Source: Caulobacter sp. CCUG 60055 (GTDB lineage: Bacteria; Pseudomonadota; Alphaproteobacteria; Caulobacterales; Caulobacteraceae). From it: DNA of 64,000 nt. Below are positions 1 through 15,679 of the stretch, one piece after another. How positions within the stretch are numbered: the stretch's first letter is position 1; each line of letters begins with the position of its first letter. A model generated the notes under the pieces. It was given only the letters and a program-made list of their open reading frames with translations. It was not told the DNA's origin and made no database searches. Made by a program: the position numbers and the translations under genes. The stretch is taken from positions 248,001 through 312,000 of the forward strand of contig NZ_PUIC01000003.1 of the NCBI RefSeq assembly GCF_022750545.1, written 5' to 3'.

Positions 1-1472
1 AGGATGGCCGGGTCGCCGGCGCCGTCGGCGCCACGGGAAACCTCTATCGGGCCCCGCGCGTGGTGCTGACCACCGGCACCTTCCTCAAGGGGTTGATCCA
101 CCTCGGCGACAAACGCATCCCGGCGGGCCGGGTCGGCGACGCGCCGTCGATCGGCCTCGCCGACCGGCTCTACGCGCTCGGCCTGGACATGGGGCGGCTG
201 AAGACCGGCACCCCGGCGCGCCTCGACGGCCGCACCATCGCCTGGGACCGCCTGGAGATGCAGGCCGGCGACGACCCCGCCACGCCCTTTTCGTTCCTGA
301 CCGCCAGTGTCGACCGGCCGCAGGTGTCCTGCGGCGTCACCTACACCACCGAGGAAACGCACCGGATCATCGCCGAGCGACTCAGCGAGTCGGCGGTCTA
401 TGGCGGCCGCATCCACGGCCGGGGCCCGCGTTACTGCCCTTCGATCGAGGACAAGGTCGTCCGCTTCGCCGACAAGACCAGCCACCAGATCTTCCTGGAG
501 CCGGAGGGTCTCGACGACGACACCGTCTATCCAAACGGCGTCTCGACCTCGGTGTCCGAGGAGACCCAGTCGCTGTTCCTGCGCACCATTCCCGGCCTGG
601 AGCAGGTCGAGGTCAAGCGGTTCGGCTACGCCATCGAATACGACTATGTCGATCCGCGCGAGCTGTCGCCGCTGCTGGAGGTCAAGCGCCTGCCCGGCCT
701 TTATCTGGCTGGCCAGATCAACGGCACCACGGGCTACGAGGAGGCCGGCGCGCAGGGGCTGGTGGCCGGGCTGAACGCCGCCCGCGCCGCCTCGGGGGCC
801 GAGCCCGTCTCCTTCGCCCGCGACGAAGCCTATATCGGGGTGATGATCGACGACCTCGTCACCCGTGGCGTCACCGAACCCTATCGCATGTTCACCAGCC
901 GGGCCGAGTTCCGGCTGTCGCTGCGCGCCGACAACGCCGACCAGCGCCTGACCGCGCGCGGGACGGCGTTGGGCGTGGTCGGGGCGGAGCGGGCCCGCGC
1001 CTATGAGGCCAAGGCCGAAAAGCTGGCCGCCGCCCGCGGCTTGGCCCGCGATCTCAAGCTGACCCCGGCCGAGGCCGCCCGCCTGGGCTTCAAGGTCAAC
1101 GCCGACGGCCAAAGGCGCGACCTGCTGCAGATGCTGGCCTATCCCGGCGTCGACCTGCAGGGTCTGGCGGCCGTCTGGCCGCAGATCGCCACGTGGGACG
1201 CCGCCACCCGCGAGCAGATCGAGATCGACGCGGCCTATGCCGGCTATCTCGACCGCCAGGCCGCCGACGTCGAGGCCTTCCGCCGCGACGAGGACCTGCG
1301 CCTGCCCGCCGATCTCGACTATGCCGGGCTGGGCGGCCTGTCCAACGAGGTGCGCGAGAAGCTGGACCGCATCCGCCCGCTGACCCTGGGCCAGGCGGCC
1401 CGCATCGAAGGCGTCACCCCCGGCGCGATCACCGCCCTGTTGGCCCATGTCCGTCGCGCCCGCGTCGCTTGA
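1..1472 (+). CDS. mnmG: tRNA uridine-5-carboxymethylaminomethyl modification enzyme MnmG (GidA), 5'-truncated by the window edge
   Basis: With MnmE this FAD protein adds the carboxymethylaminomethyl group to wobble uridine 34 of certain tRNAs in the cytosol. The frame is open from base 3, and the first bases encode protein that runs straight into the family segment [11 protein letters not shown], so the true start and the FAD-binding GxGxxG lie left of the window. About 490 of the usual 620 or so residues are present. Visible family features are [16 protein letters not shown], the [12 protein letters not shown] segment with its conserved Cys, [11 protein letters not shown], the [12 protein letters not shown] motif, and a C-terminal helical domain ending near [15 protein letters not shown]. 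The last 26 bases overlap rsmG. The order mnmG-rsmG-parA-parB is the conserved origin-proximal arrangement of many bacteria. The GTG at 60 is internal, not a start. Confidence 0.97.
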
Positions 1473-13908: not shown

Positions 13909-14715
13909 TTAGAGGGCTAGGTCGGCCGTCACCGGGGCGTGGTCGCTGGGCCGCTCCCATTCGCGCACGTCGTCGTGCACCCGCGACGAGGCCGAGCCCA
14001 GGCGGAACGCCGCCTCGCGCAGGCCGGGCGAGGCCAGGATGTGGTCGAGGCGCAGGCCGCGGTTCGAGGCCCGGAAGTCGGCGGCGCGGTAGCTCCACCA
14101 GGAAAACAGCTTCTGCGGCTCGGGGATGGCCTCGCGCGGCAGGTCGATGAAGCCCAGGCTGGCCTTGAGGGCGGTCATGGCCTCGATCTCGACCGGCGTG
14201 TGGCTGACGATCTTCGACATCTGCCGATGGCTCCAGACGTCGAACTCGCCGGGGGCGACGTTGAGGTCGCCGGCGACGATCAGCGGCGCCTTGGGGTCGC
14301 GGCGGCCCATCTCGGCGGTCAGCCGCTCGAAGAAATCCAGCTTGTGGTCGAACTTGGGGTTCAGCGCCCGGTCGGGGACGTCGCCGCCGGCGGGGATGTA
14401 GAAGTTCTGGATCTCGACCCCGGCCACCCTGGCGGCGACGCAGCGGGCGTGGCCTTCGCGGCAGGCCGCGACGGGCGCGGCGTCCTCGATCGGCAGGCGC
14501 GAGGCGATGGCCACGCCGTGCCAGCCCTTCTGGCCGCTGATCCGCAGGTGGGGCAGGCCCATCTCGGCGAAGGCCTCGACGGGAAACTCGCCCGTCTGGC
14601 ACTTGATCTCCTGGAGGCACAGCACGTCGGGCGCCTGTTCGGAGACGAAGCGGGCGACCTGCTCGACGCGCAGGCGGACGGAATTGACGTTCCAGGTGGC
14701 GAGACGCAGGCGCAT
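13909..14715 (-). CDS. xthA: Exodeoxyribonuclease III
   Basis: This AP endonuclease and 3'-5' exonuclease acts in base excision repair. The 268-residue protein carries all catalytic segments of the family: LATWNVNSVRLR (Asn7), LCLQEIKCQTGEFP with the metal-binding Glu, QNFYIPAGG (Tyr), LIVAGDLNVAPGEFDVW (Asp/Asn), LRLDHILAS, and the C-terminal ERPSDHAPVTADL with the catalytic His. I started at MRLRLATWN, the standard N-terminus; the longer frame runs through a terminator-like hairpin upstream. That hairpin lies only 34 bases ahead of the start codon on the same strand, so expression of xthA may be controlled by transcript termination. Confidence 0.96.
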   Translation of the reverse strand: MRLRLATWNVNSVRLRVEQVARFVSEQAPDVLCLQEIKCQTGEFPVEAFAEMGLPHLRISGQKGWHGVAIASRLPIEDAAPVAACREGHARCVAARVAGVEIQNFYIPAGGDVPDRALNPKFDHKLDFFERLTAEMGRRDPKAPLIVAGDLNVAPGEFDVWSHRQMSKIVSHTPVEIEAMTALKASLGFIDLPREAIPEPQKLFSWWSYRAADFRASNRGLRLDHILASPGLREAAFRLGSASSRVHDDVREWERPSDHAPVTADLAL

Positions 14716-14740
14716 GACGCCGGCATAGAGGATTCCGCCC

Positions 14741-14777
14741 CGAAAAGAAAAGCCCGGACGCACGGGCGTCCGGGCTT
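14741..14777 (-). terminator. Rho-independent terminator upstream of xthA
   Basis: A perfect 12-bp stem (14766-14777 with 14750-14761) encloses a four-base loop. Read on the reverse strand it is followed by a U-rich run (TTTTCTTTTC, counting the last two stem bases). The forward strand has no T-run after the hairpin, so it works in the reverse direction only. It ends a transcript arriving from the lolA side, just before xthA. Confidence 0.85.
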
Positions 14778-14867
14778 GAAGTGGTCTCTCATGCCGCCGC
14801 CGGGAGGGGATAGGGTCCGGCACGGTGTCAAAGCGGCGAGCGCCGGGCTCGCCCGCTTGTCCGTGTC
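14744..14867 (-). ncRNA. Candidate small RNA or attenuated leader of xthA
   Basis: Between lolA and xthA a Caulobacter-like promoter and a strong terminator define a reverse-strand transcript of about 120 nt. Near its 5' end it can fold into a long hairpin: an outer CACGG/CCGUG pairing and an inner AAGCGGGCGAG/CUCGCCGCUU stem with one bulged G and a seven-base loop. A C-rich, probably single-stranded stretch follows (CCCUAUCCCCUCCC, anti-Shine-Dalgarno-like), then the terminator. That layout is typical of trans-acting alphaproteobacterial sRNAs. Because the terminator sits just before xthA on the same strand, a cis-acting attenuator is equally possible. Ends are estimates from the motifs. Confidence 0.5.
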
Positions 14868-14873
14868 AAATTT

Positions 14874-14901
14874 GCCACTAGCAAACCAAAAGTCAAGCCA
14901 A
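14874..14901 (-). promoter_or_regulatory. Caulobacter-type housekeeping promoter for the candidate small RNA
   Basis: On the reverse strand TTGGCTT (14901-14895) is followed after 12 bases by GCTAGTGGC (14882-14874). This resembles the Caulobacter housekeeping consensus TTGACGS-N10-14-GCTANAWC, with a good GCTA core and weaker flanks. Transcription would start near 14867. Confidence 0.45.
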
Positions 14902-14922: not shown

Positions 14923-14939
14923 TTGTGAATATGTCACAA
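14923..14939. promoter_or_regulatory. 17-bp perfect palindrome TTGTGA-N5-TCACAA
   Basis: The two six-base arms are perfect inverted repeats around a five-base centre. It lies just upstream of the candidate small-RNA promoter, in an AT-rich island. It looks like a dimeric regulator site of the CRP/FNR type, but the spacer is one base shorter than the classic N6. On the reverse strand, ATATTCACA inside it differs at one position from the DnaA-box consensus TTATNCACA. Which protein binds, if any, cannot be told. Confidence 0.4.
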
Positions 14940-15028: not shown

Positions 15029-15679
15029 CTACCGCCGGACGGGGACCGGCTTGGGGTTGCGCAGCACGAACAGGCTGGAATCGAGATCGGCGGCGGCGGC
15101 CAGGCCCTGAAGCTGCACCCGGGTCGCTTGGCCTTGCGCGTCGGTCACCGTCCATTCGCGCAGGCTCATCGGGTTGTCGGCGAACACCAGGGTGATCTGG
15201 CCTTCGGCCTCCTTCTTGCCGTCGCGGGCGGTGATAGAGAAGCCGTCGGCCATGCGGGCGACGCGGCTGACCACCACGCCCTTGTCCAGCCGGATCTCGC
15301 GGGCCAGGAACAGCGACAGCGGCGTCATGCCCAGCGGATAGGAATCGAAGGTCTTCAGCCGCGAATTGGCGACGTTGACGTTGTAGCCGTCCGAGACCAC
15401 CAGCAGGCCCGACGGCGGGTCATAGGCGAAGCGCACCTTGCCCGGCCGCTTCAGGTAGAAGTCGCCGGCCGTGGTCTGGCCGCGGGCGTCGGTCTGGACG
15501 AAGCGGCCCTTGGCCTGGTTCAGCGACTGCAGATAGCCCGCCGCCTTGTCGACCAGCGCCTTGTCCTCGGCCGACAGCGGGGCGACGGCCGGCTTGGCGG
15601 CCAGGGCCTGTCCGGCCCCGGTCAGGGCGGCGGCCCCGATCAGGGCGGCGAGGGCGGCGCGGCGGGGAAGGGCGGTCAT
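15029..15679 (-). CDS. lolA: Outer-membrane lipoprotein carrier protein LolA
   Basis: LolA shuttles lipoproteins from the LolCDE complex across the periplasm to the outer membrane. The 216-residue product has a Sec signal peptide (MTALPRRAALAALIG, cleavage near GQALA-A), then YLQSLNQAKGRFVQTDARGQTTAG, FYLKRPGKVRFAYDPPSG, LLVVSDGYNVNVANSRLKTFDSYPLGMTPL, which are classical LolA strands lining the hydrophobic cavity. I chose the ATG with AGG about seven bases upstream; an ATG five codons earlier is possible. It is downstream of ftsK on the same strand with a gap of about 100 bases, an order seen in related genomes. Confidence 0.92.
   Translation of the reverse strand: MTALPRRAALAALIGAAALTGAGQALAAKPAVAPLSAEDKALVDKAAGYLQSLNQAKGRFVQTDARGQTTAGDFYLKRPGKVRFAYDPPSGLLVVSDGYNVNVANSRLKTFDSYPLGMTPLSLFLAREIRLDKGVVVSRVARMADGFSITARDGKKEAEGQITLVFADNPMSLREWTVTDAQGQATRVQLQGLAAAADLDSSLFVLRNPKPVPVRR

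Follow-up and report, generated by a model that had tools for sequence, protein, structure and literature searches.

A RusT small RNA between lolA and xthA in Caulobacter sp. CCUG 60055 and its probable place in a wider alphaproteobacterial family

The lolA–xthA interval

The window analyzed here is a stretch of 64,000 nucleotides from Caulobacter sp. CCUG 60055 (contig NZ_PUIC01000003.1, positions 248,001 to 312,000 of the forward strand); all coordinates refer to the window. On its minus strand the genes lolA and xthA enclose a small RNA gene, an orthologue of RusT (CCNA_R0199) of Caulobacter crescentus. In the order in which they are read, the features of the locus are as follows.

15029–15679, minus strand: lolA (outer-membrane lipoprotein carrier), with a match to Pfam LolA (PF03548) inside the reading frame
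14923–14939, no strand assigned: palindrome TTGTGACATATTCACAA, candidate operator upstream of the RusT promoter
14891–14896, minus strand: TTGACT, the −35 element of the RusT promoter, with TTGAC nearly unchanged across 30 loci
14868–14873, minus strand: AAATTT, the −10-like element of the RusT promoter, which is weak in this sequence and was identified by the 30-locus comparison
14743–14862, minus strand: RusT small RNA of ~120 nt, predicted to start at 14862 ± 2 and to end in the U tract, placed by alignment to C. vibrioides L034
14831–14858, minus strand: stem-loop 1 (5′ hairpin, 11 pairs), by folding
14794–14825, minus strand: stem-loop 2, exposing the seed, by folding
14800–14811, minus strand: seed AUCCCCUCCCGG of the anti-Shine-Dalgarno type, near-invariant in 30 loci and containing the counterpart of RusT C53
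14777–14788, minus strand: predicted counterpart of the RusT Hfq footprint (nt 73–84 in C. crescentus), by position in the alignment
14750–14777, with tail 14749–14743, minus strand: intrinsic terminator stem-loop of 12 bp, from a terminator scan and covarying pairs
14723–14728, minus strand: −10 (TA at −12/−11 before the ATG, 87 loci) of xthA's own promoter, separate from that of RusT and apparently leaderless
13909–14715, minus strand: xthA (exodeoxyribonuclease III), a 268-aa reading frame with its ATG at 14715

An earlier sequence-only reading of this DNA had described on the reverse strand a promoter region, a 5′ hairpin, a C-rich stretch and a perfect 12-bp terminator with a U-rich tail, together defining about 120 nt, and all of these elements are present. 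The two arms of the terminator stem, AAGCCCGGACGC and GCGTCCGGGCTT, pair over 12 bp without a mismatch (14777–14750, minus strand) and are followed by TTCTTTT; the stem is the longest of three terminator-like sites found, as against 0.6 ± 0.7 sites in shuffled sequences. The folding energy of the 126-nt stretch that covers the RNA (14743–14868) was −56.9 kcal/mol (z −2.6), and 1 of 200 shuffles folded as well. Stem-loop 1, stem-loop 2 and the terminator are clear in the minimum-energy fold of the window RNA, in which the third stem-loop reported for C. crescentus RusT is not clear. The C-rich stretch, CCCUAUCCCCUCCC, is located in the loop and on the 3′ side of stem-loop 2, a hairpin that had gone undescribed and whose loop, by folding, contains ACCCUAUCCCCUC and exposes CCCUAUCCCCUC.

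For comparison among homologues, 131 of 136 loci were combined with the window (132 sequences), reduced to 74 and supplemented with C. vibrioides L034 to give the 75 rows of alignment A1; left out beforehand were L001 and L002, which are the window itself, and L035, L050 and L096, which are cut by an edge. The seed AUCCCCUCCCGG is invariant in A1, the rows of which were picked by that same core. The 5′ segment is poorly conserved in sequence among the 75 homologues; its mean fold z-score is −2.25, and 74 of the 75 segments lie below the mean of their own shuffles. Two-sided changes were seen in 6 of 15 predicted pairs among the Caulobacteraceae homologues, all six of them within the terminator; stem-loop 2 is nearly invariant among these close relatives and therefore cannot covary there. 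Covariation in homologous intergenic regions, to which the sequence-only reading had looked for a check, is thus found in the terminator and, in the wider family described below, in stem-loop 2 as well. A small protein encoded by the conserved AUGAGAGAC was considered and rejected: the reading frame is not preserved in the alignment, and in C. vibrioides L034 the sequence is AUG AGA GAC UAG.

The promoter had been called Caulobacter-like. What bears this out is a TTGAC, a GTGGCA block and an A/T-rich −10 that are kept at nearly fixed spacing across the 30 loci; a consensus scan, on the other hand, found no sigma-70 site for RusT. The AAATTT of the window is a poor −10, and many relatives carry TATTT or TTAAT at this position. 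Our assignment of the RusT promoter accordingly rests on conservation across the 30 loci and not on the consensus scan. The palindrome TTGTGACATATTCACAA is the sole site of the pattern TTGTGA-N5-TCACAA in the genome, and related sequences occur in many of the 30 loci; it is a candidate operator, with NtrX as its possible regulator. A GAATC site (GANTC, CcrM-type) lies at 14731–14735, between the RusT terminator and xthA. One predicted CcrM site is reported for the rusT promoter of C. crescentus in the accessible text of PMC11005374.

Identity with RusT and predicted targets

RusT was described by Vogt et al. 2024 (PMC11005374), whose accessible text presents it as an Hfq-dependent, trans-acting small RNA of 118 nt encoded between lolA and xth. 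According to the same text, probing revealed four stem-loops, including a Rho-independent terminator; Hfq binds at nt 73–84; and the seed is located in stem-loop 2 (nt 45–57, around C53), the C-rich loop of which is used for pairing. RusT is induced by iron starvation or an iron chelator, or by zinc. NtrX binds the promoter, PrusT, which drives a reporter in C. crescentus, and represses RusT. Upon pulse expression 19 transcripts were lowered, of which 8 encode TonB-dependent receptors (TBDRs). The available portion of a bioinformatic paper (PMC5988900) reports a peak of CCNA_R0199 in G1.

The window reproduces the arrangement of this locus, lolA, the RNA and xthA all lying on the minus strand with the RNA in between. 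In C. vibrioides L034, nt 53 of a 118-nt RNA counted from GCATGG is a C located in the second loop, and nt 73–84 read GAGACTAGACTT; the window RNA aligns to this RNA with an offset of 2 nt. UAUCCCCUCC is identical in the two sequences, folding places AUCCCCUC in the loop, and the predicted length of ~120 nt, ending in the 12-bp terminator, compares with 118 nt. The window feature hence resembles C. crescentus RusT in place, strand, length, seed loop with the C53 counterpart, position of the Hfq site, terminator and likely TBDR targets. The sequences of the 5′ hairpin and of the terminator stem differ between the window and C. vibrioides L034, and the TBDR targets of the window RNA are predicted, whereas they have been shown for RusT of C. 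crescentus. Because RusT is an already published small RNA, the window feature is ordinary in kind, its class and mechanism being known.

Its expression and function in this organism we infer as follows. To judge from its conservation, the dedicated upstream promoter would give rise to an RNA of ~120 nt ending at the terminator. Hfq would bind at the single-stranded stretch preceding the terminator, and pairing with purine-rich ribosome-binding sites would take place through the CCCUAUCCCCUC loop of stem-loop 2. This pairing would block translation of mRNAs for outer-membrane transporters, chiefly TBDRs, under iron scarcity; Hfq binding, loop pairing and the translational block are steps shown in C. 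crescentus. The xthA gene, with a promoter of its own at the ATG, would not be controlled by RusT.

The genome contains 71 Plug-domain (TBDR) matches. Outside rusT, the 10-nt seed complement GGAGGGGATA has a single occurrence, which precedes the ATG of a TBDR gene (L318/L329) by 2 nt, and GGGAGGGGAT occurs three times, once 5 nt before the ATG of another TBDR gene (L337), where it is part of a 12-nt seed complement, CCGGGAGGGGAT. Read backwards, the two words have five genomic occurrences each. The target test covered 30 of the 71 TBDRs and 40 of 43 chosen control genes, the start codon of a target being taken as the best-pairing candidate (four candidates for L337, one for L329). Exact seed complements of at least 8 nt were found at 4 of 30 TBDR starts versus 0 of 40 control genes, as compared with 1 of 30 versus 1 of 40 for the reversed seed. 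Matches of 7 nt were present at 11 of 30 TBDRs and 2 of 40 controls for the true seed, and at 8 of 30 and 2 of 40 for the reversed one. Duplex energies did not differ significantly between the 30 TBDRs and the 40 control genes (p 0.10), nor did they separate the true from the reversed seed within the 30 TBDRs (p 0.81). Part of the signal is thus plain Shine-Dalgarno sequence. Predicted complementarity supports seed pairing at the ribosome-binding sites of two TBDR genes and no more.

An RNA with an anti-Shine-Dalgarno loop that acts on TBDR mRNAs could also belong to alphaR8, the family of MmgR of Sinorhizobium and SisA-D of Caulobacter (PMC12559287). Like RusT, alphaR8 RNAs are described in the accessible text as alphaproteobacterial, Hfq-associated and equipped with an anti-Shine-Dalgarno motif; SisA and RusT have TBDR targets in common, both lowering CCNA_03263 and CCNA_00338, and the window gave a sub-threshold match to the Rfam suhB/mmgR model (RF00519). 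The score of this match, however, was 19.8 bits against a gathering score of 41. Moreover, alphaR8 genes occupy other loci and have a different core: they are anchored at the N-formylglutamate amidohydrolase (FGase) gene in most species, whereas the flanks here are lolA and xthA, and SisA-D and RusT are separate genes in C. crescentus, again according to the accessible text. SisA-D are reported to be counteracted by CrfA (PMC12559287), of which no report was found for RusT in the accessible literature. Membership in alphaR8 is therefore very improbable, and the RNA is best assigned to RusT.

The best-scoring Rfam match of the window was anti-hemB (RF02837), which likewise combines hairpins with a G+C-rich terminator and was described from Burkholderia, outside the Alphaproteobacteria; it scored 24.9 bits against a gathering score of 49.5. 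For sX11 and the betaproteobacterial toxic sRNA the window was also below the Rfam gathering scores.

Occurrence in Caulobacteraceae and relation to the neighboring genes

DNA similarity searches yielded a match in 69 of 149 Caulobacteraceae genomes, that of the window included; a few matches are partial, as in G088 at the terminator. The 30 loci fetched (the window's own and 29 from the other 68 genomes) all lie between lolA and xthA and have a near-invariant core. The exact core pattern was found at 105 places in 84,980 species genomes, in Caulobacter, Phenylobacterium, one Brevundimonas and uncultured or generically named relatives; a metagenome-assembled genome labelled Pseudomonas (L128) has the same flanks. 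At 97 of these places lolA is located upstream and xth downstream on the same strand, and 7 more are at a locus edge. The remaining one, in Caulobacter sp. SLTY (L122), has lolA before the RNA and a different gene in place of xthA after it, which we take to be Obg-like; at 2489–2700 of this locus a second terminator-like repeat appears after RusT, followed by that gene. Invariance of the core among the 105 places proves nothing because they were selected by it; the similarity and model hits suffer less from such bias but are not exempt from it.

A model, R1, was built from Caulobacteraceae only. It matched at E ≤ 0.01 in 111 of the 149 genomes and in none of the other 38, so the RNA is not universal in the family; xthA has a match in 145 of 149. 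With laxer filters, R1 gave 36 matches at E ≤ 1e-4 in 80 regions upstream of xthA, most of them from genomes lacking a similarity match. Flanking genes were counted for matches with E ≤ 1.4e-6, that is, in 100 of the 111 matching genomes. Such a strong match is found directly upstream of xthA in 92 of the 100, at a median gap of 36 nt. In seven of the other eight genomes the RNA is situated just downstream of lolA, and xthA lies 2.9 kb downstream (G102), more than 8 kb off on the other strand (G019, G032, G044) or on another contig (G053, G061, G134), RusT being at a contig end in G053. In G144, the eighth, lolA has no match, and the RNA hit appears to be spurious.

The start of xthA was aligned in 87 non-redundant loci, to which 125 had been reduced; L035 and L036 were dropped as having no start codon at the mapped position. 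T is found in 74% of the loci at −12 and A in 79% at −11, and T in 64% at −35 and 72% at −34. This pattern points to a conserved promoter of xthA's own, with a transcript that would begin at or next to the ATG and is apparently leaderless; its −35 region (about 14746–14751) coincides in part with the RusT terminator and U tract in the window. C. crescentus has many leaderless mRNAs, 375 being reported in the accessible text of PMC4117421.

The sequence-only reading had left the choice between a trans-acting small RNA and an attenuator. As an attenuator, the RNA would be the leader of xthA, stopping at the terminator with conditional read-through into the gene. The position of the terminator, which ends just 34 nt before the xthA ATG (14715), and the adjacency of the two in 92 of the 100 genomes with a strong match fit this proposal. 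Against it stand the separate conserved promoter at the xthA ATG, the persistence of RusT behind lolA without a directly following xthA in the seven genomes (one at a contig end) and in L122, and the seed loop being the most conserved part, with no antiterminator partner standing out. The sequences gave no sign that xthA depends on leader read-through, and we consider attenuation extremely unlikely. The trans-acting RNA stands, as RusT; the attenuator finds no support, and the choice is settled as far as sequence can settle it.

The persistence of the lolA linkage where xthA is not adjacent is also what one would expect if the RNA were mainly the 3′ end of the lolA mRNA, with the terminator serving lolA and the small RNA being released by processing. 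Only a single weak terminator-like site is found between lolA and RusT, so lolA read-through probably ends at the RusT terminator. A conserved −35/−10 spacing directly before the RNA, and the reporter activity and NtrX binding of PrusT given for C. crescentus in the accessible text of PMC11005374, nevertheless argue for transcription from a dedicated promoter and make this explanation unlikely. With high confidence, we read the locus as a rusT gene whose product would be an Hfq-bound RNA that silences TBDRs under iron scarcity, leaves xthA uncontrolled and forms a branch of an older alphaproteobacterial family.

Two further observations were made. In genus g14 (L156, L190, L193, L201, L204, L205, L215), the promoter-like start and the terminator are kept at the same place before xthA, and a U-rich core ending in UCUCUUCGUGUUAUGUGCC takes the place of the C-rich one; this may be a diverged RusT or a replacement. 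Weaker model matches (E ~2e-6 to 6e-6) were found at G115:C6:76347-76447, G080:C414:40003-40157 and G069:C81:23913-24018, those in G115 and G080 being additional to the main match; they could represent RusT paralogues, other C-rich small RNAs or chance.

Relatives in other alphaproteobacterial families

In its accessible text, the paper of Vogt et al. (PMC11005374) mentions homologues in Caulobacteraceae closely related to C. crescentus, and we found no description of a wider RusT family in the open-licence literature. Applied to the class, R1 matched 36 of 289 genomes at E ≤ 0.01, three of which are Caulobacteraceae. Of the five strongest matches outside this family, four are located downstream of lolA (L230, L231, L232, L234) and one is not (L233). 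In 80 further regions downstream of lolA outside Caulobacteraceae, three R1 matches had E ≤ 2e-5 (L243, L253, L280); weaker ones were not counted, and L243 and L253 come from genomes already flagged at those places by the class search.

A refined model, R2, was trained on 36 diverse members, six of them from outside Caulobacteraceae, and matched 85 of 385 class genomes at E ≤ 0.001 (four Caulobacteraceae). Outside Caulobacteraceae, 19 of 26 R2 loci have lolA before and/or xth after the match, within ~1.5 kb and on the same strand. R2 had not been trained on thirteen of these 19, among which families f5, f6 and f11 are represented; L385, also one of the thirteen, lacks the core and is doubtful. 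Within the order, 73 of 120 genomes matched at E ≤ 1e-4, of which 25 are Caulobacteraceae; among 20 loci, mostly high-scoring, from the other 48 genomes, lolA is upstream in 17, xth downstream in 8, both in 6 and neither in 1. Eleven families are involved (f1, f2, f5, f6, f11, f92, f117, f124, f174, f175 and f176), that is, ten besides Caulobacteraceae. Matches outside Caulobacteraceae without lolA or xth, for instance L233, L235, L236, L382–L384, L386 and L388, were not counted as relatives; L376 and L389, without both flanks, were kept in the alignment described next for their sequence.

Alignment A3 comprises 18 members; L379 was excluded, its core not matching the motif used. In most rows the 5′ part forms a long hairpin whose loop resembles GUUGCCCCCCCGCUU, followed by a UCCCCU hairpin, a short GCGC hairpin and the terminator. 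The loop of the second hairpin is UCCCCU, present as AUCCCCUC in most members, and L375 (f2) departs most from this fold. Among the 36 diverse members, AUCCCC or its counterpart lies in a hairpin loop in 29, closed by inner stems such as CCGG/CCGG or UCGG/CCGA. RNAalifold missed stem-loop 2 on alignment A2, probably as a result of a misaligned stem. Over stem-loop 2 and the terminator of A3, 87.7% of cells pair and 14 of 18 pairs show two-sided changes, 0 of 500 shuffles reach the observed values on any of five measures, and pairing falls to 41–45% when the partner is slid by one column; these numbers lean in the family's favor, because the structure was derived from one member (L389), the stem of stem-loop 2 was moved by one column once an initial count had given 68.5%, and related rows inflate the tests.

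As neither the window RNA nor its close relatives have the C7 hairpin, RusT has the look of a reduced branch. We think it likely that RusT is the Caulobacteraceae branch of an undescribed small RNA family that extends across Alphaproteobacteria and is fixed at lolA–xthA, with an ancestral form of four hairpins and two C-rich loops of the anti-Shine-Dalgarno type (GCCCCCCCGCU and AUCCCCUC); this family would be an old, general regulator of envelope or iron functions, known so far from studies of its reduced Caulobacter form only. None of the wider-family members tested reached an Rfam 15 threshold, the best match being anti-hemB with 25.8 bits against 49.5. A parallel in architecture is offered by multi-hairpin small RNAs of Rhizobiales (SmelA075/SmelA099, PMC3927594), which, according to the accessible text, also have several hairpins, each with a C-rich anti-Shine-Dalgarno loop. 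The loop motifs differ, being CCUCCUCCC in the Rhizobiales RNAs as opposed to AUCCCCUC and GCCCCCCCGCU in the wider RusT family, and the words lolA and xth do not appear in the main text of PMC3927594.

What is new is thus the reach of RusT, whose relatives occur close to lolA and/or xthA in ten additional families and have covarying stems and a constant UCCCCU loop. Should these relatives be expressed and likewise target outer-membrane receptors, RNA control responding to iron and envelope state would be ancestral in the Alphaproteobacteria. The second C-rich hairpin, which the Caulobacter RNA lacks, may act on separate targets.

Other C-rich stretches were noted downstream of lolA. One, in L272 (family f45; 148–240, plus strand), matched Rfam ar14 with 31.8 bits against a threshold of 58.8. 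In family f41 (L275, L277, L278), an RNA-like stretch of another kind lies 900 nt downstream of lolA; it contains two C-rich hairpins, around ACAUCCCCUCCCUUGGUG and GGUACCGGACCCCCCUCCUGGUACC, and gave no Rfam match at E 0.05.
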